A stretch of DNA of 64,000 bases from Halobaculum sp. XH14 (GTDB taxonomy: Archaea; Halobacteriota; Halobacteria; Halobacteriales; Haloferacaceae), in the NCBI RefSeq assembly GCF_032116555.1, contig NZ_CP134949.1, positions 682,001 through 746,000 of the forward strand, in the 5' to 3' direction. The position numbers and the translations under genes are program-made. Positions 6,682-64,000 of the stretch are shown here, in pieces (the stretch's first letter is position 1; each line of letters begins with the position of its first letter). The notes beneath the pieces are model-generated. The model saw nothing but the letters and a program-made list of their open reading frames with translations. It was not told the DNA's origin and made no database searches.

Positions 6682-6780
6682 GTCGTCGGCCTCGGCACTC
6701 ATACAGTGTCGAAGTATCACCAAACGAATAAAAGGTTTTGAGCCGGTTATAGATACATGGCGGTGCGGAGGCGATGAATC

Positions 6781-7281: not shown

Positions 7282-8283
7282 ATGGCCTCTGGCAAGTACG
7301 ATGTCCTGCTGGACGCAGATGAGTGGGAGAGGAGGGTCTTCGAGAACAAGCACAAGTGCATCAATGACTGGCTTCGCAGCAAAGACTCTACGAACAAGTC
7401 GAGTTCACGTCGAACGCTGAACTCGTATAGCAGGACTGCGGCCAGGTTCTTCCACGAGTTCTTCCCGGAGGTGCATCCTTCCGATGTGACGGTTGGGGAC
7501 GTCGAGGAATACGTTCTGGACTTGAACGATAGGGATGTAGCGCAGAACACGAAGAGGAGGTACATCGAATCGTTGTCTGCGTTCTATACCTGGGCGATGA
7601 AGCGGCCACGGTTCGAAGATATCACAGGTAATCCTGCAGCTGTGGTGTTAGAGGAGATTCCGAAGAAGAAACGGCCTCGTCCGGAGACCGCGACATGGGA
7701 GAACGGCCGTGAGATTATCCGGAATATCCCTGATCCCAGGGACAAGGCTGCGGCTATCCTGATGGCGAAGACCGGTGCCCGTGTCCGTGAAGTCCTGACT
7801 GTGAAGGAAGAGGACTTGATGCTTGAAGACGGGTTCATACGGTTCACCGACAGGAAGGGCGGTCATGAAACCGTAAATCCGTTAGACGGTGAAAGCATTC
7901 AGGCCATCCGCCGGTTGCAAGCGGTCTCCTCGGATGACTCGGTGTACCTGTTCACAGGTATCCACGGAGGCAGGGTGAAACGAGAACGGATTAGACGTGA
8001 GATACGCCGAGCAGCAGTGAAAGCGGGAGTCATGGAGCATGAGGAGGAGGATCGGTGGCACCACAAGTTCACGCCGCACTACTACAGGACGATCTTCACG
8101 TCCTTAATGCGGAATAACGGGATGCCGGACCATTTCACCCGGTATCTCCGTGGCGACGGTGACCGGGAAGTCATGGATCTGTATACGAAGATTCCCAGGG
8201 ACCAAGTCCGGGACGAATACTTGGATCTCATCAAACCACTCAACCTGTACGCCAGGACTGACGGAGGTGAGAATCACAGCTGA
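7282..8283 (+). CDS. Tyrosine recombinase (integrase)
   Basis: 333 residues. An N-terminal SAM-like core-binding domain (about 40-110) precedes the catalytic domain. The active-site residues appear as Arg167 in KTGARVREVL, a basic beta-hairpin at RKGG (191-194), His266-x-x-Arg269 in TPHYYRT and Tyr301 in VMDLYTKI. The enzyme would integrate and excise the element by site-specific recombination. It follows the RHH-like gene with no gap, and its stop overlaps the next small ORF. Confidence 0.93.
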   Translation: MASGKYDVLLDADEWERRVFENKHKCINDWLRSKDSTNKSSSRRTLNSYSRTAARFFHEFFPEVHPSDVTVGDVEEYVLDLNDRDVAQNTKRRYIESLSAFYTWAMKRPRFEDITGNPAAVVLEEIPKKKRPRPETATWENGREIIRNIPDPRDKAAAILMAKTGARVREVLTVKEEDLMLEDGFIRFTDRKGGHETVNPLDGESIQAIRRLQAVSSDDSVYLFTGIHGGRVKRERIRREIRRAAVKAGVMEHEEEDRWHHKFTPHYYRTIFTSLMRNNGMPDHFTRYLRGDGDREVMDLYTKIPRDQVRDEYLDLIKPLNLYARTDGGENHS

Positions 8284-43226: not shown

Positions 43227-44534
43227 GTGGGAGAAGACTCGAAAACAGAACTGAAACAGGAAGACTTCGGACTCTTCCAAGACAACAACGACAGCAAAAT
43301 CTTCGCAGACATCGATATCCTCGACCCTGATAGGATTCCTGGTCCCGACGAGTTCGTAGAGAGAAAAGAGGAGATGCAGACCATAGCGTCCGGCCTGCGT
43401 CACATGATTAACGGGAACTCCGGGAGGAACATGATGATAACCGGGGACACCGGGCTCGGGAAAACGATGTGTGCCCGGATAACCGTCAACGAACTCTCCC
43501 GGAATATGGACGAGCACCAGAACTTCCGGCACGAATACTTCAACGACCTCGAGTCGGAGAGAGACACGTTACAGAAGCTATCCCGTGCCTTGGAACTTGT
43601 TCCCGAGAAGAAGACGGAGCCATACCAAGGGACAAATCTCTCCTTCTACTACGACCTACTCGTTGAGAAATTGAAGCAGGAGGAGATCTACCTCGTCATT
43701 ACTTTCGACGAAGTCGACCGGTTGATGTCGAACAAGAAGGAGGGGAAGCCGGCGAGTCACGGGAACTCAATGCTAAAACAGCTGTTAGAGGTGAGGAAGA
43801 AATTGAAGAACTCCGATGCAGAGGCAGGGTTAACTCTGATCTGTATCACCAACGATTCCAGCGTTCCCGGAGATCTCTCGTCCAAAGTCAAGGACCGCTT
43901 CGGGAGAGAGGGACTTCACTTCTCAAGCTACAACGCCCTCCAGCTGAGGAACATCCTTGAGAAAAGGGCGGAGAAGGCTTTCCAGCCTGGTGTAGTTGAT
44001 AGCGGGGCAATCTTCGCCACGGCTTCCCTGGTGGCTCGTGATAGTGCTTCAGCCAGAAGAGCGATTGAACTCTTGCGGAAAGCAGGTGAACTGGCTGATG
44101 AGAACGGAGACGGTGAAATAAGGAAAGAGGATCACGTCGATCCGGCACACGAGGCCCTGGAAACGAACGAAATTCTGGAGGCGATCAAAAGTCTGCCGAA
44201 GCACAACAAGATCACTCTGTACGCCATTATAGCGAATTACTCTGGAGGCAAGCTCGCAACCGGCGATGTCTACGAGAATTACAAGGAGATCTGCAGGAAG
44301 CGGGCTGACCTTTCAGAGAGTGAGATGCTGTCTCAGAGATCGATCAGTGAACACATCAAGAAGATGGATATGCAAGGTATCATCCAGGCCAAGACGGTGT
44401 CCAAGGGAAGGTATGGCCGGACGCGTGAGATAACTATCAATTTCAGTGAGTCCACACGCCAAGATTTGATGGAGCATCTCCATGAGGAAAACCTGTACCT
44501 GGCTCCGGACTCGATGGCTGCAGAGCCCACCTGA
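43227..44534 (+). CDS. Orc1/Cdc6 replication initiator
   Basis: 435 residues. The AAA+ part has Walker A MMITGDTGLGKTMCA (about residues 70-84), Walker B LVITFDEVDRLMS, sensor 1 LTLICITNDSSVP and an arginine-finger-type region DRFGREGLHF; a winged helix closes the protein. The GTG at 43227 is 6 nt after AAGGTGA. It should bind the ORB boxes just upstream and start replication of the element. Confidence 0.93.
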   Translation: MGEDSKTELKQEDFGLFQDNNDSKIFADIDILDPDRIPGPDEFVERKEEMQTIASGLRHMINGNSGRNMMITGDTGLGKTMCARITVNELSRNMDEHQNFRHEYFNDLESERDTLQKLSRALELVPEKKTEPYQGTNLSFYYDLLVEKLKQEEIYLVITFDEVDRLMSNKKEGKPASHGNSMLKQLLEVRKKLKNSDAEAGLTLICITNDSSVPGDLSSKVKDRFGREGLHFSSYNALQLRNILEKRAEKAFQPGVVDSGAIFATASLVARDSASARRAIELLRKAGELADENGDGEIRKEDHVDPAHEALETNEILEAIKSLPKHNKITLYAIIANYSGGKLATGDVYENYKEICRKRADLSESEMLSQRSISEHIKKMDMQGIIQAKTVSKGRYGRTREITINFSESTRQDLMEHLHEENLYLAPDSMAAEPT

Positions 44535-46567: not shown

Positions 46568-47347
46568 TTAGTCCTGTTCTTGGTCTATAGGAATCTCTTC
46601 GTCAATCTCGGGATCCTGGTGGGCGAACTTATTTTTCAGGTAGACGAGGGTCAACCGGGTTATCGGCTCCAGTTTGTCCTTGTTGGAGATCATATCTCCT
46701 TTATCTCCGGTTACGACAGTGTCGATGAGGTACCTATCTTTCAGGTCCATTGCGTCGGTTAGGACCTCTGCGTCAGGGGAATATTCATCTTCATCGCCGT
46801 CGATTATCCTGCTCATCTGGGAGCAGGGCGTGGAGTAGTCCTTGTCGTCTCGGCGGCGACGGATTTTGACCCGTTGCCGTACCTCGTCTTTCCGGTCGAT
46901 AGCGGTGCTGTTGATCCGGTTGATGAGTTTGTTTAGAGAGTCTTCGACGTCGTCTAAGGTGCAGCTTTGATCGAGTTCTTTCTCGAAGTAGTTCTCGACC
47001 TTGTGCTTGATTTGGTCCTCTACATCGAATTTGTCGATGAAGACTTCGGAAACCGAGTCTGGATCCAGGTCCTCCTCATCCTTGGTCTTGAGCTCGAGGT
47101 AGGTGAAGCGTTTCCGTTTCCGGAGCTTCCGCTTTTCCTTGCCGATGACGCCGTCTTCCTTTGACCAGTCGAGGGGTTCGCCGTCTCTCGGTCCGTGGCC
47201 GACGTTGACGCAGTATTCGTAGAGAACAGTGTTGCCGGCGTACAGAGTGTTTTCTGACGCCATGAGGCGGCGGGTATGGTCTTGCCACCGGTTGTGCAGA
47301 AAGGTGTATCCGACAAGGACGTTCGTGTCTACGTAGTAGCTCGCCAT
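46568..47347 (-). CDS. PIN-domain protein, probable toxin nuclease
   Basis: 259 residues. YYVDTNVLVGYTF at the N-terminus, DAEVLTDAMDLKDRYLIDTV and VVTGDKGDMISNKD near the end carry the acidic metal-site residues of PIN RNases. A charged insert (about 60-185) enlarges the domain. It starts four bases after the stop of the next-listed upstream gene, forming a two-gene operon like a toxin-antitoxin pair. Confidence 0.78.
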   Translation of the reverse strand: MASYYVDTNVLVGYTFLHNRWQDHTRRLMASENTLYAGNTVLYEYCVNVGHGPRDGEPLDWSKEDGVIGKEKRKLRKRKRFTYLELKTKDEEDLDPDSVSEVFIDKFDVEDQIKHKVENYFEKELDQSCTLDDVEDSLNKLINRINSTAIDRKDEVRQRVKIRRRRDDKDYSTPCSQMSRIIDGDEDEYSPDAEVLTDAMDLKDRYLIDTVVTGDKGDMISNKDKLEPITRLTLVYLKNKFAHQDPEIDEEIPIDQEQD

Positions 47348-47350
47348 TCC

Positions 47351-48229
47351 TCAGTCTGCGTTAACCTCTGTAAAGTCCAGTTGAGACGTCATCACTGTAT
47401 CTGCTGCTTCGACTAAGTGGTCGCTCTCGTCCTCGATGTATAAGTGTTCGCGCTCCTGCTCATGGAGCTCGTTTCTAAAGTACTGCTTCCGGTTCTCCAG
47501 GTCGCCTATCCCCAGTTCTCGCTGGATTTCTTCCTTGGAGAGGCCGGTGTCGATATCGACTGCAAGTTCCAGGGTGAAGAGGGACCAGAAGATTTCGACC
47601 AGTTCTTCGATGTCTCCGAGAGTGGTTTCTGGGTCGTTGAGGCGGTTGCTGAGGAGGTCGTACCAGAGGTAGAGGTCGTTTACGTACTGCGGGTATTCGT
47701 CTTCGGGGAAGGCGTCGATGAACTCGTTGACGTATCGGTGGATTTCGTCCCGTTCAAAGCTTGTCTCGTCGTCGTCTTTCTTGTAGAGCTGCCACTGGAC
47801 GAAGTCATCCAGTTTCCGGTATTTTCTCTGGGCGTCGTATGGTGCGTCCTCCTCGTACATTCTGTCCGTGAGTCCCTCCGTCCCGATATCATCGTGGTCC
47901 TCGAGTACGTATCTGGTGGCGTCTCTGATGATGTTTTCTTGCCGTGTAGTCAGTGAGAGGTCGTCTGTTCTCTTGGAGCAGAGGACTTCTGACTCCTCCT
48001 CGTCGTATTGGATCGTGACAGGACTATTCTGGGTGACGGTCATCGTCCCGAATTTGTACCAGAAGTAGGGGAGGTCGAAGTCACATCCGAGGTCGTTGAT
48101 TTTCTTCTCGATGAAGTACGTGGTTTTGTGGAACGTCTTTGCGTCCATCGAACTGGATCTTCCAAATTCGTCGAAAAGGATGGCGGCGACGTCTCCCAGG
48201 TCAATATCACTGGGATCCTCTAAGCTCAT
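47351..48229 (-). CDS. Partner of the PIN protein, Panacea/DUF4065-like N-terminus
   Basis: 292 residues from the ATG at 48229 (the frame is open slightly further up). SSSMDAKTFHKTTYFIEKKI then LPYFWYKFGTMT resembles the SocA-like/Panacea antitoxin domain (a helix with K-x-x-YF-I-E, then a YGP-like motif). The rest is helical and acidic. Its position before a PIN gene supports an antitoxin role. The family link is tentative. Confidence 0.6.
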   Translation of the reverse strand: MSLEDPSDIDLGDVAAILFDEFGRSSSMDAKTFHKTTYFIEKKINDLGCDFDLPYFWYKFGTMTVTQNSPVTIQYDEEESEVLCSKRTDDLSLTTRQENIIRDATRYVLEDHDDIGTEGLTDRMYEEDAPYDAQRKYRKLDDFVQWQLYKKDDDETSFERDEIHRYVNEFIDAFPEDEYPQYVNDLYLWYDLLSNRLNDPETTLGDIEELVEIFWSLFTLELAVDIDTGLSKEEIQRELGIGDLENRKQYFRNELHEQEREHLYIEDESDHLVEAADTVMTSQLDFTEVNAD

Positions 48230-48342
48230 TACTGACCGCTCTGAGCGCAAATTACTTGTAGTTTGCCTACATGAGGCGGCGTTCTCTTAAAAGACCCAAA
48301 CGAACTTATCACTTCGACGCCGTTCTACGGTCAACTTCAGTA

Positions 48343-49761
48343 ATGTTTCGCAACCACGAGGGCGGGCGTGAGGCAAGCCACCATCACGGCGAACTCTACA
48401 AGGATCTTGTCCGCAGGTACTGGGAGGCCCGTGAATACAATGTTGTCGCGGACTCGAAGGACGACAGCATCACGTCCGACCTGATTATCAGGCGGGCTCA
48501 TGAACACGGGAACCAAGATCTGTGGATCGAGACGAAGGACACGAAGCTGACTCGGACCAATCCGGATTTCCTGGCCGAGTTTGCCCGGTACATGATCGAG
48601 TATCAGGAAATTTCTGCGGAACACCGGTTCGACCTGCATATTTTCGTCCGGTATCTCCGGGCTCCGGAGAAGTGGGAGCGGATTTTCAAGGTGGTCAAGC
48701 AGAAGGATGAGGCTGTAAAGGACTTCTATCAGCGGGTCCAGGATGATGCGGATCTGGACGAGGCTGAGGAAGACAAGTTCAACAGCTACCCTTACGAGGA
48801 TTTTGACCACTTCGTTACAGAGGTCACAACTGTCCATCAGATGTCGCCTGCGAAGGTCCAGCAGGCTACGGAGGAGTTGGAACGCAGTGACCGGTACGAG
48901 CACGACACCTTCACCGAGGAAAGGGAACCGATCAACAAGCGAGAGGAGCTGAGACCGAACTTCGCGGAGATAAACAGTCCGCCAGAGAACATCTATATCG
49001 GGGACGTGGACGTTCCGAACTTCTTCCAGGGAGTTACGAACCTGATTGAGGATACGGAGGCAGTCCGGTTCCGGTCGAACAAGGTATTCAGCTTGCTGCC
49101 TCCCGAGGATTTCCCGGATTACGTGGAGTCGGTCGTGGAGATGGATACGGTTTCAGCTGAGTCTTTCGAGGACTGGGCTAAGGACGAAGAGAACACAGAT
49201 CTGGCTTCGTCCTTGCTGACTCGGGAGATCTGCAGGCAGACCGTGGAGAACCACGAGTTGGACGACTGTGTGGCGTTCCGGTACCGTGGCGACTACTACC
49301 TGATGTTCGAGCACGGACCTCTAGAGAAAGAGGTCGAGAAAGTTCGGGGTCAGCAGGTTTCCCGGGTTTTCAGTGATGCCTCTTCCAGGTTTGTTCGTCA
49401 CCGGACTGCCCAGCTGAACGTCCGGCGTTTGAACGACGACTACTTCCTCTTCGTATTGATCAAGGACCACTTTACGGACAACGGAGAGCACATGACCTTG
49501 ATCAGAGGTGAGAGAAAGGGAAGTCTCCACGATAATTTCCCGCAGCACCGGTACAACAACAGTCAGACGTACAGCAGGTATAACCACTGGCGGAAGATCC
49601 TGGGAATCCACAACCGGGCGAAGGATACCAGTGGTCAGATAATCGGGTTCCGACGTATCACTGAGATCTCGATCGGGAAGCGTCCCGCCGGGACACGGGA
49701 GGCAATCGATACTCGGGACACTGATTCGGTTCAGCAGAAACTGGGTGATCACAATGACTGA
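48343..49761 (+). CDS. Nuclease-APAZ protein, partner of a short Argonaute (SPARDA-like)
   Basis: 472 residues from the ATG at 48343. Residues 17-65 show a PD-(D/E)XK core: Glu17 in HGELYKDL, Asp46 in SDLIIRR and Glu63-Thr-Lys65 in DLWIETKDT. The C-terminal half is an APAZ domain: SSRFVRHRTAQLNVRRLNDD, YFLFVLIKDHFTDNGEH and YSRYNHWRKIL. In SPARDA systems such a protein binds the short pAgo and, when activated by guide-target pairing, degrades nucleic acids indiscriminately. It overlaps the Argonaute gene by eight bases. Confidence 0.85.
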   Translation: MFRNHEGGREASHHHGELYKDLVRRYWEAREYNVVADSKDDSITSDLIIRRAHEHGNQDLWIETKDTKLTRTNPDFLAEFARYMIEYQEISAEHRFDLHIFVRYLRAPEKWERIFKVVKQKDEAVKDFYQRVQDDADLDEAEEDKFNSYPYEDFDHFVTEVTTVHQMSPAKVQQATEELERSDRYEHDTFTEEREPINKREELRPNFAEINSPPENIYIGDVDVPNFFQGVTNLIEDTEAVRFRSNKVFSLLPPEDFPDYVESVVEMDTVSAESFEDWAKDEENTDLASSLLTREICRQTVENHELDDCVAFRYRGDYYLMFEHGPLEKEVEKVRGQQVSRVFSDASSRFVRHRTAQLNVRRLNDDYFLFVLIKDHFTDNGEHMTLIRGERKGSLHDNFPQHRYNNSQTYSRYNHWRKILGIHNRAKDTSGQIIGFRRITEISIGKRPAGTREAIDTRDTDSVQQKLGDHND

Positions 49762-51175
49762 TTTCGATGCACGGTGGCTGGGCGAGCCGTCTCTGAAGTT
49801 CGGAGATGGTGAAGCGAAGGATCCTCGCGCCGGCCTGCTGAAACACGGGCCGTGGTCGCCTGGGGAAGGCAACAACCACAACGATATCTATGTCGGGTTC
49901 ATCGGGACCAGTCACTCCATCAGCGCGGTCAAGCGGTTGTTCACTGAGATGGAGACGGTGATCCCCCGGGAGGAGGAAGAACCTCAAAGGCACAAGCCTC
50001 CGTTCCCGGCCCTGGGCACCGACTCTGCCTTCCGTGCCAGCTTCACGATGCTGGACAGGTGGACGTGGGAGATGCCGCCGAGCGACGTCAAACTCGTTAC
50101 TGACGAGCCCACGACTGACCAGAGCGTAGAGACTCTGCTTGACTTAATGGAGATCTATATCAAGGATCTTTCCGGGGATGACCCGCCTCCGAACGTACTT
50201 GTTATTTCGCTGCCGGAGGAGATCGAGGAAGCCTGTACTCACCCGGACAAGAGCAAGGAGAAGATGAAAGCGGGGGACACTGACTTCCACGACCGGATTA
50301 AGACGTTCGGCCTCGAGTATGACGTCCCCACCCAGCTGATTCGACCGAGTTCTCTCCGGTTCGATGACGATGAGGGACAGGAGAAGGCCGAGGTTGCCTG
50401 GAATCTCGCCGTGGCGATGCTCTACAAGTCACGTGAGGGCCATCCCTGGAAGCTGGGGCACCTGGAGAACGACACCTGCTACGCCGGGATCTCATTCTAC
50501 CGTGTGCGGCACGGCGATAAGAGCCAGACACGGGCTTCACTCGCCCAGGTTTTCCTGGGCACCGGGGAGAGCTTCGTGCTTCGCGGCGGCCAAGCAATTA
50601 GAGACGAGTCAACAGGAAACAACCACTTGACCGAGGACAGTGCGGAGGAGATTGTCGGGCAGATCCTTGACCAGTACAAGAGGAAGCGTCGAGGAGCCGA
50701 GCCCAGCAGGTTCGTGCTTCACAAGACTTCCCGGTTCAAGCCCGGTGAACGAGAAGGGTTCAAACGAGGGGCTGGAGACATCGACAAACTGGACTTCGTC
50801 ACGGTGCGCGACGGCGACCCAGTCAGGCTGTACAGTTCAGGGAATTACCCGCCGCTTCGTGGGACAGTAGTCACTCCGAAAGGCGAGGACAAACACTACC
50901 TCTACACACAGGGCTACACTCCGGCCATTCAGACGTATCCAGGTCCTCGCATCCCGGCCCCGATCACCGTTGAGCCAGATCCGGAGGAATGCCACAGCTC
51001 GTACGACGAGATATGTGAGGAGATTCTCTCGTTCACGAAGCTGGACTGGAACACGTCCGACTTTTCGAAAAAGAAGCCGGTCACGATCCGTGTGGCGCAG
51101 GCTGTCGGCGCGATCCTTGCAGAGGCCGACAAACGGGGAATCACGGTCAAACCGCAGTACTACTATTATATGTAA
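49754..51175 (+). CDS. Short prokaryotic Argonaute (MID-PIWI)
   Basis: 473 residues from the ATG at 49754, just after GGTGATCAC. MID features: VPTQLIRPSSLRFDDDEGQE and NLAVAMLYKSREGHPWKL. PIWI features: CYAGISFYRV, SRFVLHKTSRFKPGEREGF, LYSSGNYPPLRGTVV, YTPAIQTYPGPRIPAPI and FTKLDWNTSDFS. The catalytic Asp expected in the first PIWI strand is missing (AGISF), so it should be slicer-inactive, as short pAgos are. It would use small guides to detect invading nucleic acid and activate its nuclease partner. Confidence 0.93.
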   Translation: MTDFDARWLGEPSLKFGDGEAKDPRAGLLKHGPWSPGEGNNHNDIYVGFIGTSHSISAVKRLFTEMETVIPREEEEPQRHKPPFPALGTDSAFRASFTMLDRWTWEMPPSDVKLVTDEPTTDQSVETLLDLMEIYIKDLSGDDPPPNVLVISLPEEIEEACTHPDKSKEKMKAGDTDFHDRIKTFGLEYDVPTQLIRPSSLRFDDDEGQEKAEVAWNLAVAMLYKSREGHPWKLGHLENDTCYAGISFYRVRHGDKSQTRASLAQVFLGTGESFVLRGGQAIRDESTGNNHLTEDSAEEIVGQILDQYKRKRRGAEPSRFVLHKTSRFKPGEREGFKRGAGDIDKLDFVTVRDGDPVRLYSSGNYPPLRGTVVTPKGEDKHYLYTQGYTPAIQTYPGPRIPAPITVEPDPEECHSSYDEICEEILSFTKLDWNTSDFSKKKPVTIRVAQAVGAILAEADKRGITVKPQYYYYM

Positions 51176-51233: not shown

Positions 51234-51941
51234 ATGCAACTGACGCCGGATAATGTTCAGAAGTTCGTTGATGGTGTGATGGAGTATTACGGTGAGAAGA
51301 CGCTTCTTGGAGACGCCACGTATGTCGACGATTACGGTTCTGCGAATATCCCTTTGGAGAGACGCCGCGTGAGTCCTAAGCTGAAGGTGAAGCAGTTCGA
51401 TCGGGGCATCGCAGCTGAGCAGGTGAAGAGGGATGTCGACGATATCACTTCCTTCGAGCAGGACAAACTGCTGAACTGGTTGGAAGCCGAGGCGGATGTG
51501 AAGGAGCAGGTGGATGGCTCAGAGTTCTCGAAGGACTTGATGAAGAAGACGTTGAAGCCGTTGAGCAGTCCTGTCCATGTGCTTCTACCTGATGAGATGG
51601 AGTACAGGTTGCGAGTGAACAACGATTCGTATATCCGAGGGAATGATAAGATCCCGATTACCTGGTTCACGTCAAGCCAGTTCGACCAGACCGGGTTCGT
51701 GTTGGATCGTGGTGCCCGGGTCCTGCAGAAAAGGCAGGGTGACGACCCAATCGTCGACAGTTCGCTGAATGTAGGTGCACTGCCGAAGGACAACAGCGGA
51801 AACGGATTGACCCTCAAGCTGCTGGACGACAAGAAAGGTGACCTGGAGGCAGTGATCCAGTCTGAGTTCACCGAGCTTCGGAAATCCGACCGGTACGATT
51901 CGGTGTGTCTCTTGGATCTTCCTTCGCTCAGTCTCCCGTAA
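51234..51941 (+). CDS. Hypothetical protein downstream of the Argonaute
   Basis: 235 residues, ATG at 51234. VHVLLPDEMEYRLRVNNDSY and PITWFTSSQFDQTGFVLDRG suggest an alpha-beta fold. No family recognised. It follows the Argonaute by 58 bases on the same strand and may belong to the same module, though SPARDA systems need only two genes. Confidence 0.62.
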   Translation: MQLTPDNVQKFVDGVMEYYGEKTLLGDATYVDDYGSANIPLERRRVSPKLKVKQFDRGIAAEQVKRDVDDITSFEQDKLLNWLEAEADVKEQVDGSEFSKDLMKKTLKPLSSPVHVLLPDEMEYRLRVNNDSYIRGNDKIPITWFTSSQFDQTGFVLDRGARVLQKRQGDDPIVDSSLNVGALPKDNSGNGLTLKLLDDKKGDLEAVIQSEFTELRKSDRYDSVCLLDLPSLSLP

Positions 51942-55103: not shown

Positions 55104-58100
55104 CTATCTGTACTGGTTGATGAGTTCGCGGATGTCGTCGGAGTCTACGTAGAGACCTTGCAGACGGGTGGTTCTGTCTGCTTCTTTCAGCAGCATGTCG
55201 CCGTCGCCACCGAGTTCCTCGGCTCCGCCCTCGTCGATCAGGATCCGTGAGTCGGACTGCTTCGGGAGGCGGAAGGCTACCCGGGTGTCCAGGTTGGCAC
55301 GGAGATCCGTGTCGATGGCCTCGTGCGAAGGCCGCTGGGTCGAGATAACGAGGTGGACGCCTTGCGCCCGTGCGATCTGGGCGATACGCCGCACGTTGTC
55401 CTCGGTGTCGTCAGCGTCTTCTCCCAGCTGCTGGAGCAGGTCGCTGTATTCGTCGATGATGACGACGATTGGCTTCATCTGGTCGTCCGGGTTCTGCTCG
55501 TTGTACTCTCCGATGTCCCGGCAGACGCTTTCCCGCAGCAATTGTTTTCTACGCGGGATTTCTTCGTCGACCAGCCACTCGAACAGGTCGGCTGCGTCCT
55601 CCGAGTCGGTGATCACCTCACCATTGGCAAGGTTCGGCAGGGCGTCGAAGAAGATGAAGTCGGTCTCCTTCGGATCGACCAGGGCGAACTCGACGTTGTC
55701 CTCGCCTTTCTGCTCGATGAAGTTGAAGATCAGCGAGTACAGGAAGACGGTTTTCCCGCCGCCAGTGGCACCTCCGACCAGCATGTGAGGGGCTTCGGAA
55801 AGATCGGACCGGTAAACCTCCCCGTCGGGTGTGACTCCTGCGAGGTAGGGCAGTGAGGCAGTGTCGATCTCGTTGGAAGGCAGGTACTGGTCTCTGTAGT
55901 CGCGGAGGGGTACGGCGACGTTGTTCTCACGTGGGACGTCCAGGGCTACGTACTCTGTGCCTGGTAGTCGCTGGACGATGGGTTCTTTCTCGAACGCCAT
56001 TTCCCGGGCGATGTCCTCTGTTCGTTGTTCCAGAGGACTCTGTTTTTCGCCAGCTGCTAACCGGATTTTGAACCGGACGACGTTTGGTCCGACCTCGATG
56101 TCATCTGGGTCGATATCCCGGATGTTGATTTTGAAGTCGTTGAGCACCCGTTTCAGGGTCTCGACTAGCTCTGAGTACTCTTCTGGGTCGCCGAACCGCT
56201 TAGTGGGCTTCGCTTCGACTTCCGTTTCTTCCTCGTCTTCTTCGTCTGTCTCCTCGTCTTCTCCAACTTCGTCTTCGGATTCGTCGGGTTCAGTTTCTTC
56301 CTCTATTTCTTCTTCGACGTCTTCTTCGACGTCTGGCTCTTCCGTGTCCTGGTCTTGTTGCTTCTCCTCCCGGTCTTCGATTCCGCTGACGATGAGGCGT
56401 TTGATGGACTGCCGTGGAAGCCTGTCGAGTCGGATGGACTGTGCGTTCGGCGTGACTCCGTCGATGCGTTCGTCCGATGTCCCTTCATCGGTGACTTCAA
56501 CGGAGATGATTCGGGGATTGATCTCGATCTGAGCGTCTCCCTTGAACACGTCGTTGATGCGGTCAGCCCATTCCTGCTTGCCCTCCATCGCTTCAGCGGA
56601 CGTGAGTTCGTAGTACAGCTGTTCCCGGAGTGCTTCTTTCCGGGGCGAAGTAGTGATGTTGCTGTCGCCGGTGAACAAGCCGCGGATGGTGTCCGTCGTT
56701 TCGAATACCTGGTCGACGGCACTTCCCTTGATTACCGGTGTGTCCTCGTCTCGTGAGATTGTGTACGCGCTGCTGGTCTCCTCGAGTGTTTTTATCTCGA
56801 TTATATCGAGGATGAGGCCGCCATCGTCATCGAATTGGACGGTAAGGATGTCTGCCCGGCTCTCGCTGTCGCCCAGGTTCAACCATTCTCTGGTCCGCGG
56901 GTTGTCGATGGAGAAGATTAGCTTGGGATCTGCCAGTGTCTGTTGCAACCACTGGACTGCGATGATCGAGCCAAGCAGCCCTTTCGTGTTACGGGATTTT
57001 CCGCTGCCGAGGGTTTCCCGCGTGATGAGCCGGAGAAGTCCGCTTTGCTGCAGATCTGCGATTCTTTCAGCGATTTCTTCGAGGTCGGTGTCGTCGGGAG
57101 CGAGCCGGTATTCGTTGATGATGCGGCGGAGTACCCGTCGGAAGTAGTCGATGTCTTCCGAGTACGTGGCGAAGTCACGGTCACCGCGTCGTTCCCTGGA
57201 GATCAGGTTTTCCTTCCAGAACGGGTTGCCGTTCATCGGCGGGGAGGAGATCGATACCCAGATCCCGGAGTCGAGAAGTTTGTCGATGGTCTCCTTGTCG
57301 ACGTTCAGTTCGTTGATCTCAGCGTTGTGGATAGCTTGACGCTGATTGTATAGTTGGTTGATCAGGTCCTGGTACTCTGAGAAGAGCACGCCTTCCTTCG
57401 ACGGCGAGATGTTGATCTTGTCTTCGAGGAGGTCGTAGTCGAACTCCTTCGGGACGTACAGTGGATGGATGTTGGTGTCGGCGTCTCGTTCGAAGGTTTG
57501 GATGCTGAAGTTGCTCTGGTCGTTGAGCAGGATGAAGTGCTTGGGGTCGCCGGTCAGGTCCTCGGCGTACGAGTCGTAGCTGGTGTGTTCGGTCGTGACG
57601 ATTTCGAAGTTCCCGGAGTCGTTGTCCGGGCCGAACAGGTTGATGATGTCCTCTGAGGTTTGGGGTGAGACAGTTCCGTTGAGGACTGGCTTCTCCTCGT
57701 CCTCGATGAACACGAACTCGACAGTGGCACCTTGGATCTTCTCTTTGTCGGCCAGGTCAACGATGTCTTCCAGCAGGTCGATCGGGTCAAGCGGGTCGAT
57801 AACGCTGATCCGCAGCTGGCGTTGGGATGGCGGGTATGCCGATACGAACTTGTTCAGGACGTAGTCGTAGAACTTGGAGTTCGTGCCTTCTGCAGCGTTG
57901 TCTATACGGGTGTAGACTGGCAGCCGGTCGAGTTCGGCGGACTGTACGAGGTAGGTTTCTTCGCCAAGTCGGTAGTTTCCGCCGACGTGGATGCTACGGA
58001 GTACGTGGGGTTGTTCCTCGACGCTGTCGATCAGGAAGTTCCGTTCCTCTTCTGTGAGCGACTCGTGTTCGTCGTTCACTCCCCGTGCCAGTTCGGAGTA

Positions 58101-59711
58101 TTTCCAGAGGTGAAGGGGGTGGAGCGGTGACAGGACGAGTTCACGGTCGTCTTCGTATTCGAAGATGATCGTGTCGAAGAGGAGGAAGTCGGAGAGGAGT
58201 TTCGAGGATCCTTCGGAGCTTACGTTCTGGATTTCACGGTACTGCTTGTCCAGTTTGTCCTGGACTTCTCGGTATGCCTCGATGTACTCTTCTGCAGACT
58301 CAAGCAGGTCTTCGTCACCGAGTAGCCGGATCAGCGGTGCTGACAGGAGGCCGGGTAGTGCGTCGACGAGTTCGGTCCGTGCTTCTACGTACCGGTTGAT
58401 TGAGTCGACGAGGTCCTCGAATTTCCCGGTGTTTTCAGCTACCTTTCGGAGTTTTTCGAAGGCGCTGTCCTCTTCACGCGGGTTGAACTGTTCTGTTTCG
58501 AGGGCTTGGAAGTTCTTGATGGCGTCTTGCTTGTCTTCGGGGTTGTGGATGATTCCGCCGAAGGATTCCTCTGTGACGAAGTGGTCGACGAAGTAGTACA
58601 GGTCGTCGTTGACGTCGAAGGCGAGCTGTTCGTCGCCTGTGAACTCGATGTCGATCCTGTTCTCTTCGTCTTCTATGGCTTCCCGGTATTTCTCGTCGAA
58701 CTCGCTGGAAACTCGTTCCAGTTCTTCGTCCTCTCCGTCGAACACGGCTTCGACTCCGGCGGATTCACTGTCTCGACGGGTGCTGGTTGTGGATCGGCGG
58801 GAAGAGGAGGAGCCGGATGTAGAGAAGATCTCGTCGACCTCGTTGTAGGTGAGGTCGGCCAGGATATCGGAGTCTCCAGTCCGTTCGAATCTTCGGAGTT
58901 TGGCGACGGCTTCTTCTCGTTCTTCCCTGTTTGCGTCGTCGACCTTGGTGACGCTGTTTGTCAGGCGTCGTCGGTCCGTGTTCGACATGTGGGAGACCCG
59001 GAGTACGAGGTCGAGGTTGTCGGAGAGCCGGTCAGGGATTTGGTCTGGGTTGTTCAGCCCGGGGTCGTTGAAGAGTCGAAGCCGATGGAGTTCGGTTCCA
59101 AGGGCGTCGAGGGATGCCTGTTCGTTGTCCTGTAGGGTGGCGTTTGCGTAGTCTGCTATGGCAGGGATTTCGAACCTGTCGTAGAGGCTGGATCCGAGGG
59201 TTTCCCAGATTGCTTGGGCTGGGGGACTGTCGGTGAACTGGTCGTGTGCCTGCATCCGGTCAGTGATTTCCCGGGTGATCTCTGCCAGCGGCAGATCAAC
59301 CATGCCCTCGAAGTCTTTCATCGAGTTCAGCCGGGCGTGGTCGCCACGGACCAGGATTACCAGCTTCTCGGGTTCTATCCTCCCGTCCCAATCGAAATCG
59401 GTCTGCGTGCCGTTACGCCAGTTGACAGCGACACTGACCTTGTCGGTTATTCGGACTGAGGAACCGTCGGCTTGGGACTGAAGGGAGTTAACATCGGCTT
59501 CATCAATGCTCACCATTGCCAGGCCGACATCGTACCTGGTGCTACTGCAGAGTGTTTCGACGAATGCCTCGGCGTCGAACCGGGGCGGAGACTCGATGAT
59601 GACACCGATGTTCTCCTCGGTCAATTGGTCGACCGTCTCGCTGCCGATCGCTTCTCCGATTAGCTCCTCGTTGGTTTGATACGAGCCGTTCTGGGATTGG
59701 GATTCACTCAT
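55104..59711 (-). CDS. Large FtsK/HerA-like motor protein with embedded nuclease-like motif (DptH/PbeD-like)
   Basis: 1535 residues. The C-terminal third is an FtsK/HerA motor: Walker A LVGGATGGGKTVFLYS, Walker B PIVVIIDEYSDLLQQ, then GVHLVISTQRPSHEAIDTDL. Around residue 955, SRADILTVQF ... LDIIEIKTLE has the D...ExK spacing of PD-(D/E)XK nucleases. An acidic linker (about 1120-1165) separates the halves. Layout and operon match the large effector of Dnd-linked Dpt/Pbe systems. The ATG overlaps the upstream stop and follows GAGGTGG. Confidence 0.8.
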   Translation of the reverse strand: MSESQSQNGSYQTNEELIGEAIGSETVDQLTEENIGVIIESPPRFDAEAFVETLCSSTRYDVGLAMVSIDEADVNSLQSQADGSSVRITDKVSVAVNWRNGTQTDFDWDGRIEPEKLVILVRGDHARLNSMKDFEGMVDLPLAEITREITDRMQAHDQFTDSPPAQAIWETLGSSLYDRFEIPAIADYANATLQDNEQASLDALGTELHRLRLFNDPGLNNPDQIPDRLSDNLDLVLRVSHMSNTDRRRLTNSVTKVDDANREEREEAVAKLRRFERTGDSDILADLTYNEVDEIFSTSGSSSSRRSTTSTRRDSESAGVEAVFDGEDEELERVSSEFDEKYREAIEDEENRIDIEFTGDEQLAFDVNDDLYYFVDHFVTEESFGGIIHNPEDKQDAIKNFQALETEQFNPREEDSAFEKLRKVAENTGKFEDLVDSINRYVEARTELVDALPGLLSAPLIRLLGDEDLLESAEEYIEAYREVQDKLDKQYREIQNVSSEGSSKLLSDFLLFDTIIFEYEDDRELVLSPLHPLHLWKYSELARGVNDEHESLTEEERNFLIDSVEEQPHVLRSIHVGGNYRLGEETYLVQSAELDRLPVYTRIDNAAEGTNSKFYDYVLNKFVSAYPPSQRQLRISVIDPLDPIDLLEDIVDLADKEKIQGATVEFVFIEDEEKPVLNGTVSPQTSEDIINLFGPDNDSGNFEIVTTEHTSYDSYAEDLTGDPKHFILLNDQSNFSIQTFERDADTNIHPLYVPKEFDYDLLEDKINISPSKEGVLFSEYQDLINQLYNQRQAIHNAEINELNVDKETIDKLLDSGIWVSISSPPMNGNPFWKENLISRERRGDRDFATYSEDIDYFRRVLRRIINEYRLAPDDTDLEEIAERIADLQQSGLLRLITRETLGSGKSRNTKGLLGSIIAVQWLQQTLADPKLIFSIDNPRTREWLNLGDSESRADILTVQFDDDGGLILDIIEIKTLEETSSAYTISRDEDTPVIKGSAVDQVFETTDTIRGLFTGDSNITTSPRKEALREQLYYELTSAEAMEGKQEWADRINDVFKGDAQIEINPRIISVEVTDEGTSDERIDGVTPNAQSIRLDRLPRQSIKRLIVSGIEDREEKQQDQDTEEPDVEEDVEEEIEEETEPDESEDEVGEDEETDEEDEEETEVEAKPTKRFGDPEEYSELVETLKRVLNDFKINIRDIDPDDIEVGPNVVRFKIRLAAGEKQSPLEQRTEDIAREMAFEKEPIVQRLPGTEYVALDVPRENNVAVPLRDYRDQYLPSNEIDTASLPYLAGVTPDGEVYRSDLSEAPHMLVGGATGGGKTVFLYSLIFNFIEQKGEDNVEFALVDPKETDFIFFDALPNLANGEVITDSEDAADLFEWLVDEEIPRRKQLLRESVCRDIGEYNEQNPDDQMKPIVVIIDEYSDLLQQLGEDADDTEDNVRRIAQIARAQGVHLVISTQRPSHEAIDTDLRANLDTRVAFRLPKQSDSRILIDEGGAEELGGDGDMLLKEADRTTRLQGLYVDSDDIRELINQYR

Positions 59712-61210
59712 TGTTCCACCTCGGGGACAGAGACAATCGTGACGCCGTCCGCGTATTCCTCAGCGTATCCGAGGCTGGACACGGCTTCTTTGAAGCCCTC
59801 GTAGTTTTGGTTGTTCAGGGGGTCGCTTTCTGAAGCACTGGCACCGAGCCTGATGTCCCATTCGGCCAGGTGGCTTCGGTCTTCTTCGGTGCCGCCAACG
59901 ATGATTCCGTACCGCTGACGGAGTTCCTCGGACAGTTCCTGGAGAGACATCCGTTTTCCAGGTTCAATGACCGAGAGGATGATAGGTTCAAGCATCTCGG
60001 GATCGGGCTGATAGCGGCGCTTGTTTGCCCGGTTTCCACGTGGCTTGAGAAGCCCTGCACGCCAGGCGTACGCTTGCGCAGTGGCCTGCGGGGTGTAGGT
60101 GTCGAACCGGTTCGAGAAGTCGTGGATAACGTTACTGACCGCGTCCACTAACCTGTTGAACGTGGTGTCCTCCTCGGGGTCGCGGGATGCCCGGAATACC
60201 TGCTCAAACTTTTCGTAGTCCTCGTCGATTTTATCATCCTTCTTCCGGTTGAGATCCAGGAAGTTTTGGTTCTCGATTTCGCGCAGGACGTCGTCTTCGC
60301 TGTAGTCTTTGTAGCCGTCTCGGTCGAGGACCTTTTTGACGCCGAGCCGGGTAGCTAACTGGACTTCTGACCCGACGACGCGGAAGGATTCGAGGCTGGC
60401 GTCGGCAACCGGGTTGTTCCTGTTTCCGGTGTAGTTGAAGACGAGTGGGACAGGCTCATCTTTGCCTTCGTCTTCCCGGATCTCGTTGTGCCGGTTGGCC
60501 ATGTAGACGTACATCAGGAATCCGCCGAACTTGACGACTCGGCGGAGATCTCGGGCATAGTTCAGGTCGTAGTCGCCGTTGGAATCCTTGAGGTGTTTCG
60601 ACAGGGTTTCGAATCCGTCTACGAACTCTTCCGCGATTTGGCCGTCGTCGAATGCGTCACCGAGGACAGGTTCATCCCAAGGTGAGACGGTGACGGTGTC
60701 CGTCTCTCCGTCCTTTGCGAGGGGGCGGAAGAGTAGGGAGATGGCGTCGTGGTGATCGCGGAGCTGGTCCGTGAGTTTCTGCTCGATGTCGCTGTTAGAC
60801 TCCTGCATCACCGTGTAGATGAATCGAGATGGAGAGACACCGATGGTCCTGTATGCGATGAACCAGTCGCTCATCGAGGTCATGGCGGACCAATGCGGTG
60901 TGCTGGTGTACAGGGCGTTGTCGTTGTCCAGGACCTTCCGCATCCGGCGACGGAGATTGTCCAGTTGCTCGTCGCTCAGGTCACGCGATGATTCGAACAG
61001 GTCGTGGTATTTCTCGTCGAGTTCGCTGGAAGGAGAGCTTCCAGGTTTGTCGACGAACGTGATGAGGTCTTCCGACTGGTGGGTTGATCCTAAGACGTTG
61101 CTGAAGATTACCTGGGCCAGGTGAACCGGCTTTGTGGAGGTGGATGTGGCTTTGAAGCCGAAGGCGGCTATCGATGCGTCACCGTTCACGTCGTTGAGTC
61201 TCATTGGCAT
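59708..61210 (-). CDS. Defence-operon protein, third gene (PbeC/DptG-like position)
   Basis: 500 residues. MPMRLNDVNGDASIAAFGFK, LYTSTPHWSAMTSMSDWFIA and RRVVKFGGFLMYVYMANRHN are recognisable blocks of proteins found beside DptF- and DptH-like genes; I cannot give a fold. The C-terminal part (SLQELSEELRQRYGIIVGGT) looks winged-helix-like. The ATG is 6 nt after GGAGGTGA. It overlaps the motor gene by four bases, so the proteins are made together. Confidence 0.65.
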   Translation of the reverse strand: MPMRLNDVNGDASIAAFGFKATSTSTKPVHLAQVIFSNVLGSTHQSEDLITFVDKPGSSPSSELDEKYHDLFESSRDLSDEQLDNLRRRMRKVLDNDNALYTSTPHWSAMTSMSDWFIAYRTIGVSPSRFIYTVMQESNSDIEQKLTDQLRDHHDAISLLFRPLAKDGETDTVTVSPWDEPVLGDAFDDGQIAEEFVDGFETLSKHLKDSNGDYDLNYARDLRRVVKFGGFLMYVYMANRHNEIREDEGKDEPVPLVFNYTGNRNNPVADASLESFRVVGSEVQLATRLGVKKVLDRDGYKDYSEDDVLREIENQNFLDLNRKKDDKIDEDYEKFEQVFRASRDPEEDTTFNRLVDAVSNVIHDFSNRFDTYTPQATAQAYAWRAGLLKPRGNRANKRRYQPDPEMLEPIILSVIEPGKRMSLQELSEELRQRYGIIVGGTEEDRSHLAEWDIRLGASASESDPLNNQNYEGFKEAVSSLGYAEEYADGVTIVSVPEVEQ

Positions 61211-61216
61211 CGGTGG

Positions 61217-62770
61217 TCACCTCCGCTCCATCTGGTACCGGTCATCGTTGACTGTCAAGATCTCGAGGTCGCCGGTTTCAGCATCCATGATGTGAACGGT
61301 GCCGTAGTCCTCGTCGTGGCTTTCTCTGTACTCGATTTCCTCCATGAACTCCAGGAGTTGCTGTTCTTCCTCCCTGCCACGGAGGACGTAGGGAATGTTT
61401 CCTTCGAGTGCGCCCAGTGTTTCGGAGAGATCTGGGTCGATCCGGAGTCTGACCGTGGAGTTCCGGCCTTCGTATTCCAGGACGTGGTGGTCGTGGTTGT
61501 AGTCCATCGCTTCCCTGATTTCAGGGTGTAGCTCCGGGACCCGCCGGTTGAGTTCCCGTTTGGGGATCTCGGTGCGGGAGATGAGTGAGAGGGAGCTCTT
61601 CGACCGGTAGTTGTGGGAGAGCCAGACGCGGAGATCTGAGCCTTTCGAGGAGTCTGGCATGAAGTAGCCGTTGATCATCTCTATGACGTCCTCTTTCACG
61701 CTTTCATCTGGGCGTTCCCGGTTGCGTTGCTCGTGGAAGGAGTAGTTGGTTTCGTGGTAGAGATCGCGTGCGTCGAACTTCTCGATATGGGTGTCTTCGA
61801 AGTAGAACTGGCGTTTCTTCTGGATGAAGTGCTGGTCGACTTCATCTGCGGCGTCGTCGGTGTCTCCTTGTGGGATCTCTTCTTCTGCGTCGGCCCACAG
61901 CTTGCTGTCGATGAATGGGTGAGTTAGGTCGCGGGGATGGAAGTTCTCGTTGAGTAGTGTGAAGATTTTCCCGCTGCCGCTGAACGCCAGGTTGTAGTAC
62001 TTCAGTTCTTCGTTGAAGTCGGTGACGCTCCGGTCTTTTGCGCCTGTGATGCAGTACGCGAGGAAGTTGAGTAGGTCTCGGACGGTTACGTGGGCATCGA
62101 GCTTGCCGACGGACTGTAGGAGACGGACGATGTTGTCCCTGACCCGGTCGTTTCGGATCTTGTCCATGTTGTAGGAGATGTGTCCGTCAATGTCGTCGCC
62201 GTTGGGCTCTTTCAGGAACTTGGATGAGGTCAGGTTCTCGATAGCCTGGACGATGACTTTCCGGGTGAGGATGTTCCGGTTGTTGAGGTCAATGACGGTG
62301 ATGGAGTCAAAGTCTGCTTCGTCTGCTTGGCTATCGTCGTAGATAATCTGGTTCTGGAACTGGTCCCTGACTTCTTCGAGGAAGTCGTACTGGTCCGAGT
62401 GCCGGGTCGTCATCTCGTACAAGGGACCGTCGTTGATAGCGAGCACTCCGGGCCGGCCCGCGTCAAGCGCGTCTTGCCACTTGTCGAGAAGGATGGTGTA
62501 GTCGTCGTATTCAGAGGCGTCGGAGAGGTAGAAGTAGTCTGGTTCGGGATAGTCCGGTTCCATCTGAAGGATGTACTGGGTTTTCCCGTCCCCTGGGTTT
62601 CCGGTGAGTACGACCTGCTTGCCGTCGTCCAGGGCGTCTTCCAGGTATCCGTCGAGGCGTGTGGTGATGTGTATCTCGCGGCGTTGTTCTTCAGTCAGCT
62701 TCTCTGCGAATCCTCCCTGAGCGAGTTGGGAGAGGAATCGCAGATCAAGTGTCGATGCTTCGATACCCAT
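61217..62770 (-). CDS. DptF-like P-loop ATPase of the defence operon
   Basis: 517 residues. Walker A is VVLTGNPGDGKTQYIL (about residues 53-68), a likely Walker B is GVLAINDGPL, and LLNFLAYCITGAKDRS resembles the sensor/linker region of DptF-type ATPases. DptF is one of the restriction proteins acting with phosphorothioate modification. It lies between the DUF4338 gene and the third gene on one strand, with gaps under 40 bases. Confidence 0.78.
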   Translation of the reverse strand: MGIEASTLDLRFLSQLAQGGFAEKLTEEQRREIHITTRLDGYLEDALDDGKQVVLTGNPGDGKTQYILQMEPDYPEPDYFYLSDASEYDDYTILLDKWQDALDAGRPGVLAINDGPLYEMTTRHSDQYDFLEEVRDQFQNQIIYDDSQADEADFDSITVIDLNNRNILTRKVIVQAIENLTSSKFLKEPNGDDIDGHISYNMDKIRNDRVRDNIVRLLQSVGKLDAHVTVRDLLNFLAYCITGAKDRSVTDFNEELKYYNLAFSGSGKIFTLLNENFHPRDLTHPFIDSKLWADAEEEIPQGDTDDAADEVDQHFIQKKRQFYFEDTHIEKFDARDLYHETNYSFHEQRNRERPDESVKEDVIEMINGYFMPDSSKGSDLRVWLSHNYRSKSSLSLISRTEIPKRELNRRVPELHPEIREAMDYNHDHHVLEYEGRNSTVRLRIDPDLSETLGALEGNIPYVLRGREEEQQLLEFMEEIEYRESHDEDYGTVHIMDAETGDLEILTVNDDRYQMERR

Positions 62771-62808
62771 ATTTATCTTGGATGTGGTGACCGAGTATTT
62801 CCGACCTG

Positions 62809-64000
62809 TTAACTGTTGCTTATAATGAACTCCCCAAGGCTGGTCTGACGCTTGTCGAAGTCGATTTCACTGCTTAACTTGAAGTCCTGTTTGTCAAATT
62901 CATGGATGTTTTCGAGGATGTCTGTTTTCTGGGCTCGCATACTGGCCCACCGGTCGATCCAGTGCTGGTAGATTGATTGCTGCTCCTGTTCCGGATCTTC
63001 GAACGGCCAGTAGTACTCGGGGTCGTCGTCTATTCCCAATAGGTAGTCCTGGGCGTTTTCGGCGAGATCGATGCCGTAGACGATACGCCGTGATTCGTGC
63101 TTGAGCAGGTCGGTTTCCAGTCCGCAGTTCTTCAATCCTCGCCGGATCTTGCGGATGCGGGGGGAGACGCCTTCTCCAAATCTACCTCGGACGACTTTCC
63201 GACCTTCCTCAAATTGGGTGACTTGACTTAGTCGCTTCCTGGTCTTCGGCCCAAATTGGATTGAGCCGTATCCCTCAGTGTATCCGATCTGGTCGTACTC
63301 GATCCGGCCTCTCTCGGTCGGGACTCTCACCCGGTCATACTGGGCGCTTCCAATCTCGAATAGTCCGGTTGTGTCGAGGAAGACCAGCTCATTCGGCTTC
63401 GTCAACGCTTCTCCTTTCATCGAGCTGGCGATCTCGCTCTGGTTATCGCCGTATTTGTCCTGGTACATGTTGATGACCTTTGGACCGGTCAAGGCCATCG
63501 CCACGAGTTTGCCACCCAGGATACGATTGTAGGGCGGGATAGCACCGCAGACCATGATGTTCATCATACCGGCCCCGACGCGCTCCTTCTTGAGCTCTTT
63601 CAGAGCGGTTTTGATAGCCCGGCGTCCGGACTCGTTGTTCAATCCGGTGTGGATGAACTCCTCGTCGTCCTGGTCGCTGTGTTCTTGGAAGTACTTCCTG
63701 TCTCGCAGGAGTTTCTGAAGTGCGCGTGCCCGCTTCTTCCTGAACAGGGCTGTCTCGCTGCGGTCCTCCCAGGAGTCCATCTTCTCCGGGTTTTCGTCTT
63801 CCCCGTCTTCGATGGTCTGCTCGGCTTGCTGCTCGATTTCTTCCAGGATTTCGATAACCTGTTCATCAGGGTTAACGAAGCTTTCGTCGGACAGTTCCGG
63901 ATGCTCCTCGACGAAGTCGTCGTACCGGATGTTGGCGATCGCGTTCCTGATGGAGTCCACTAGAGCTTCACGTATATCGGAGCAGAACTGGCTGACCCGT
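62809..64000 (-). CDS. DUF4338 (DruA-like) protein, N-terminus possibly beyond the window
   Basis: At least 383 residues. MVCGAIPPYNRILGGKLVAM, LVFLDTTGLFEIGSAQYDRV and YTEGYGSIQFGPKTRKRL are the DUF4338 signature (also in Druantia DruA). A GTG at 63960 gives a possible start, but the frame stays open to the right edge and reads SQFCSDIREALVDSIRNAIA, a continuous helix, so the true start may lie past 64000. It is the first visible gene of the leftward defence operon. Confidence 0.8.
   Translation of the reverse strand, partial: RVSQFCSDIREALVDSIRNAIANIRYDDFVEEHPELSDESFVNPDEQVIEILEEIEQQAEQTIEDGEDENPEKMDSWEDRSETALFRKKRARALQKLLRDRKYFQEHSDQDDEEFIHTGLNNESGRRAIKTALKELKKERVGAGMMNIMVCGAIPPYNRILGGKLVAMALTGPKVINMYQDKYGDNQSEIASSMKGEALTKPNELVFLDTTGLFEIGSAQYDRVRVPTERGRIEYDQIGYTEGYGSIQFGPKTRKRLSQVTQFEEGRKVVRGRFGEGVSPRIRKIRRGLKNCGLETDLLKHESRRIVYGIDLAENAQDYLLGIDDDPEYYWPFEDPEQEQQSIYQHWIDRWASMRAQKTDILENIHEFDKQDFKLSSEIDFDKRQTSLGEFIISNS

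Follow-up and report, generated by a model that had tools for sequence, protein, structure and literature searches.

How far does the Argonaute system carried by a mobile element of Halobaculum sp. XH14 extend, and what might each of its genes contribute? From the stretch of 64,000 nucleotides analysed here (the window), a first-pass annotation had deduced a two-gene SPARDA-like system consisting of a PD-(D/E)XK-APAZ protein (REase-APAZ) and a slicer-dead short prokaryotic Argonaute (pAgo), encoded by genes overlapping by eight bases. Indeed, both reading frames share exactly 8 bp (Table 1), and an overlap of 8 or 4 bp is found at this junction in most haloarchaeal loci, and in the other intact ones no more than 4 bp separate the two genes. 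An in-frame ATG of the REase-APAZ gene is also present at 48271, yet conservation begins at 48343.

Table 1. Positions of the Argonaute locus, of further genes of the element and of the second-system operons (window coordinates unless another locus is named).
Feature	Position	Strand	Length and remarks
Tyrosine integrase	7282–8283		element gene
Orc1/Cdc6	43227–44534		element gene
Predicted PIN-domain nuclease gene	46568–47347	−	259 aa
Panacea-like partner gene	47351–48229	−	292 aa; ATG at 48229; longer TTG start at 48250
Divergent intergenic region	48230–48342	.	113 bp, common to both gene pairs
REase-APAZ gene	48343–49761	+	472 aa; PADLOC, conserved residues, APAZ matches
Slicer-dead short pAgo gene (MID-PIWI)	49754–51175	+	473 aa; alternative GTG start at 49745
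Overlap of REase-APAZ stop and pAgo start	49754–49761	+	8 bp; ORF coordinates
Second-system five-gene operon, L125	5983–11372
Second-system five-gene operon, L142	3941–9391	−
Second-system five-gene operon, L173	3990–9342	−

The whole-genome search with the Pfam Piwi profile missed the pAgo, which matched Piwi at 0.0078 when searched as a single protein; PADLOC models were used instead for this reason, and comparison with the short pAgo models resulted in a pAgo_I match at 3.3e-145, as the annotation had led to expect. In the PDB, the closest entries are SPARDA Agos (2e-66 to 1.5e-55), aligned from end to end. Instead of an intact DEDX tetrad, alignment with five haloarchaeal long-A pAgos reveals serine, threonine and glutamine at the positions of the three aspartates (D→S, D→T and D→Q), so that the statement refers to three of the four tetrad positions, the Glu-finger column being without reliable alignment. 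A lysine of the guide pocket (K183, equivalent to K187 of NbaAgo) is invariant in 25 pAgos.

The REase-APAZ protein matches the PADLOC model Aga_REase_Archaea at 5.7e-80. Its C-terminal part, with the APAZ domain at about residues 195–459, is similar to the APAZ regions of the structurally solved SPARDA partners 9qbl, 9qbq, 9qbp and 9jsb and of the HNH-APAZ protein 9om4 (4e-11 to 9e-9), corroborating the APAZ part of the annotation. The N-terminus is PD-(D/E)XK-like with residues E17, D46 and E63-x-K65; D46, E63 and K65 do not vary among 23 haloarchaeal relatives, and E17 hardly varies. For this nuclease half, however, no sequence match to DUF4365/DREN was obtained in Pfam, NCBIfam or the PDB. 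The residue plan is similar to that of the NbaSPARDA DREN domain with D41, Q60 and K62, but a glutamate (D-ExK) is present where the latter has glutamine (PMC12205087). Because of both the missing DREN/DUF4365 similarity and the D-ExK arrangement, the label DREN is not established. The SPARDA-like designation is right with respect to architecture, since NbaSPARDA and TmuRE-Ago likewise combine a short slicer-dead pAgo with an overlapping upstream nuclease-APAZ gene, and pAgo and APAZ are homologous. Both proteins had also been described as acidic, which applies in a moderate form (pI 5.2 for each versus 6.5–7.2 in four bacterial homologues).

A midpoint-rooted pAgo tree places the haloarchaeal proteins together with those of other archaea in an archaeal cluster (support 92/86; core 99/97) located beside, and apart from, the cluster of sampled bacterial pAgos (89/79), while four distant pAgos from viral contigs fall outside both; this is the placement against bacterial SPARDA that the midpoint rooting allows. 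Of the 392 genomes sampled from the order, 36 (about 9%) encode a pAgo homologue and 33 a REase-APAZ homologue. Homologues are located on Haloarcula, Natrinema, Halorubrum and other plasmids, and the pAgo versions on the Natrinema zhouii and Halopenitus persicus plasmids are 94–95% identical. Besides, both proteins directly match the components of PADLOC argonaute class I (Aga_REase_Archaea plus pAgo_I), and the archaeal APAZ group III (PMC6299218) may be the corresponding APAZ group. Carriage of the pair by an archaeal mobile element was thus correctly noted but is not new, as is evident from the PADLOC archaeal model and the plasmid homologues. Directly 3' of the pAgo gene, a gene of unknown function (51234–51941, + strand) shows 88% identity to its Halopenitus persicus counterpart; it was rejected as a part of the system because, among the loci scanned, it is common only to that one.

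When all ORFs around the haloarchaeal loci were compared, four gene families proved to be present in 22 of 22 intact loci and in all ten sequence clades. Upstream of the REase-APAZ/pAgo pair and divergent from it, a Panacea-like gene is followed in tight coupling by a PIN gene. The next neighbour family is found in 5 clades and 10 loci, and its listed members overlap genes of the module on the opposite strand. A chance neighbourhood of the PIN and Panacea-like genes is rejected by the 22 loci from 10 clades, and the extent of two genes given in the annotation was accordingly too small: both upstream genes belong to the system. An ordinary two-gene SPARDA-like system with incidental neighbours, as might be assumed from bacterial, methanogen and viral-contig loci having pAgo and partner without extra genes, is scarcely credible for the haloarchaea, where the same two neighbours recur throughout and other flanking families do not persist. 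Outside the haloarchaea, PIN and Panacea-like genes were absent around the pAgo in 8 bacterial loci, 7 loci of other archaea of the same phylum (including methanogen ones) and 7 viral-contig loci, some of them on short contigs; about half of these loci have an APAZ gene recognised by profile.

The 259-aa protein is, as judged from its sequence, a PIN-domain protein. Of 23 family members, 13 match the Pfam PIN profile (PF01850), the best at 4.2e-5, and of the acidic residues, D192 and D215 are invariant and D7 and E44 nearly so. Residues 47–190 comprise a mostly helical insertion of about 140 aa. The AF2 model (pLDDT 86.4) gave VapC/VapBC entries as the top three PDB matches in Foldseek with probabilities of 0.90–0.93, albeit at non-significant E values of at least 0.09. 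For the 292-aa protein, nothing significant was found in Pfam or NCBIfam, and the fold search gave no PDB or BFVD match at E ≤ 0.001, with a single weak and nameless BFVD match. Its profile, however, aligns with that of haloarchaeal Panacea (PF13274) proteins at an hhalign probability of 78, compared to about 5 at most for unrelated alignments and at most 0.4 for 30 column shuffles. As PF13274 is absent from the families matched by this protein family (27 members shown), the protein is designated Panacea-like, not a member of Panacea, in view of a remote profile-profile similarity. Panacea domains are antitoxin domains and proposed sensors (PMC10440598).

A wider scan across about 85,000 species genomes, restricted to relatives keeping two short motifs, returned the haloarchaeal loci and one Thermoplasmata MAG. 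The latter has a stand-alone pair (L141 5902–7235), in which the Panacea-like gene runs into a small overlapping gene matching PIN at 6e-7, with no Ago in the 8.5 kb covered; among the relatives found, no other lacks a nearby Ago gene. Like PanA/PanT and VapBC, the haloarchaeal cassette consists of two tightly coupled genes, with a VapC-like PIN fold and remote Panacea similarity. This toxin-antitoxin-like anatomy, the stand-alone pair and the plasmid location of many loci might indicate an independent addiction-type module stabilising the defence locus or the plasmid and acting outside the Ago response. A free module of that kind, however, would be expected away from Ago genes as well, and no intact strong match to the PIN or Panacea-like gene apart from an Ago locus was found in the 392 haloarchaeal genomes. 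Each of the 35 Panacea-like loci with E < 1e-15 in these genomes lies beside Ago-system genes, in 34 cases next to a REase-APAZ gene and in one (G157) next to a different Ago operon. For the PIN protein, only one strong match lies away from Ago genes, a fragment in G196 without any Ago relative in the 14 kb covered, and the two plasmid relatives lying apart from the usual pAgo are explained by splitting of one locus next to IS4 transposases and by a different Ago system in the other. Moreover, the PIN and Panacea-like trees match those of pAgo and APAZ, so that independent addiction appears unlikely. In contrast to PanA/PanT and VapBC, the cassette is fixed to Ago loci in haloarchaea and its PIN protein bears the long insertion.

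Evolution of the four genes also points to a unit. Except in a few disrupted copies, the genes keep their order, orientation and tight coupling, their four trees correlate with r = 0.88–0.96 (Mantel p = 0.001, without control for host phylogeny), and dN/dS values of 0.02–0.14 demonstrate purifying selection on all four genes. Since very similar four-gene units are found in different families of the order, for example, in G033 (f1) and G363 (f4), transfer as a unit is indicated. Broken units decay. On pHLAC01 of Halorubrum lacusprofundi, the pAgo is intact while only the last ~50 residues of REase-APAZ are left (L063 7859–9425 / L070); both upstream genes are missing, and a DUF499/methyltransferase set comes next. 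On a plasmid of strain DL31, the break falls within REase-APAZ, and the two parts of the locus (L174 6946–9123 and L175 4952–7404) lie about 283 kb from each other on the record, both with an IS4-family transposase in their vicinity.

The same cassette also fronts a second Ago system in three haloarchaea, i.e., Halegenticoccus soli, G157 and a Haloplanus rallus plasmid. These operons encode, in this order, the Panacea-like protein, the PIN protein, a 329–332-aa protein, an AfAgo-like split pAgo of the long-B type and a 438-aa protein, the latter being a probable membrane effector with apparent C-terminal transmembrane helices. The layout resembles those of AfAgo with its N-L1-L2 partner and of SiAgo-Aga1-Aga2 with its membrane effector (PMC10954474), whereas the window pAgo is on a different branch than the split long-B pAgos and has a different effector. 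Here, both cassette genes are co-directional with the Ago genes. In the SPARDA-type loci, by contrast, the divergent intergenic region is kept compact, with 82–172 bp in every locus compared. From the latter arrangement, it might be proposed that the Panacea-like protein chiefly regulates the shared divergent promoter, silencing the toxic Ago pair until infection, with the PIN protein contributing post-transcriptional control. But a divergent promoter is not essential given the co-directional second architecture, no confident HTH was found in the Panacea-like protein, and the Panacea paper argues against a role as autoregulator (PMC10440598), making this proposal quite improbable.

Occurrence of one pair in front of two Ago systems with unrelated effectors is what would be expected of a shared upstream step. 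Accordingly, the PIN protein may be a guide-making RNase converting invader or cellular transcripts to short RNAs for the pAgo, positioned or restrained by the Panacea-like protein, the cassette then being a supply module and not a toxin. Conservation of the guide-pocket lysine and the RNA guides of characterised bacterial SPARDAs would fit as well, while bacterial relatives do without the pair and the characterised ones act as two-protein complexes (PMC12205087, PMC10810196), and the stand-alone Thermoplasmata pair has no Ago in the 8.5 kb covered. Guide supply is hence possible, if on the unlikely side; as one cassette is shared by two systems whose effectors differ, it is a close rival of a role as second effector, and sequence evidence does not separate these two.

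A TA-derived, guarded second effector is nevertheless favoured, as the stand-alone pair exists and its parts resemble toxin and antitoxin. The locus is then tentatively read, with a little less than even confidence, as a four-gene SPARDA variant in which an RNA-guided, DNA-triggered collateral nuclease is coupled to a TA-derived PIN RNase, the whole being borne on a mobile element. For the core, we infer guide and target chemistry, collateral cleavage and order of events by analogy with NbaSPARDA and TmuRE-Ago (PMC12205087, PMC10810196). The short pAgo would be loaded with a small RNA guide and base-pair with invader DNA. As it cannot cut, pairing would trigger assembly of pAgo/REase-APAZ complexes and thereby switch on the PD-(D/E)XK nuclease, and indiscriminate degradation of nucleic acids might then abort the infection or remove the plasmid. 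The PIN RNase would represent a second, RNA-cutting arm, probably neutralised or gated by the Panacea-like protein, which might restrain it until tripped by the Ago response or the invader; in other words, a toxin-antitoxin module may have been recruited into an Argonaute locus. The core is supported by relatedness to the characterised SPARDA Agos and APAZ partners, the dead PIWI domain, the conserved REase core and the invariant guide-pocket lysine, the unit by its presence in all 22 loci, fixed order, matching trees and low dN/dS, and the TA-like origin by the Thermoplasmata pair, the VapC-like fold and the remote Panacea similarity. On the other side, the Panacea assignment comes from profile comparison at probability 78, systems already having a nuclease or a membrane protein have no obvious need for a second effector, and an upstream role such as guide making would equally explain a cassette in two Ago systems.

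A further difference from SPARDA is the two additional genes always present in the haloarchaeal loci, which also find no convincing match among the PADLOC models. In the open-access full texts covered, no PIN or Panacea-like partner of a short pAgo is described. The constant co-travel of a PIN nuclease and a possible antitoxin-like protein suggests that the archaeal version is a four-part system, of which defence catalogues may list only half. In a wider sense, it is an evenly balanced proposition that the PIN/Panacea-like cassette is a general Argonaute accessory module of haloarchaea with no described bacterial counterpart, serving at least two slicer-dead Ago systems either by making guides or by adding a guarded second kill switch. 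Guide source and restraint of toxic effectors are open questions for short pAgos, and a nuclease-plus-regulator pair kept with two archaeal Ago systems offers a concrete genetic handle on both, linking toxin-antitoxin-like modules to Argonaute immunity.

Two loci from outside the haloarchaea deserve mention. In a non-haloarchaeal archaeon of the phylum, an APAZ protein (L167 2755–4185) has an N-terminus that, read by eye, is Schlafen/AlbA-type-like instead of a nuclease, which would suggest effector swapping. A viral contig (L159 1630–7431) encodes a pair of REase-APAZ and pAgo that comes close to the haloarchaeal clade, with a nearby gene appearing TIR-like by eye; the stretch examined contains neither a PIN nor a Panacea-like gene.

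The window is part of a 3.32-Mb contig in a genome of 3.68 Mb, and the Argonaute locus had been ascribed to a mobile element with integrase and origin. A GC island (0.54 versus 0.70 for the chromosome) that spans window coordinates of about 5.1 kb up to 103.65 kb and the tyrosine integrase agree with this description, whereas the origin is represented by the initiator gene Orc1/Cdc6 only, with unremarkable repeats and no convincing replication-origin repeats near it. The 16-bp direct repeat GGCCTCGGCACTCATA is present beside the integrase gene (window 6688–6703) and again at the right GC edge (C1 785637–785652; window coordinate 103637), and no tRNA att site was found near either edge. Hence, the repeat is likely the att site of an integrated element of roughly 97 kb, with no tRNA involved. 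On the same element, SspH-, SspG- and SspF-like genes are located beside a DruA-like gene (window 55104–63960, − strand), predicted to constitute an SspFGH restriction set of the phosphorothioation type close to the Argonaute module.
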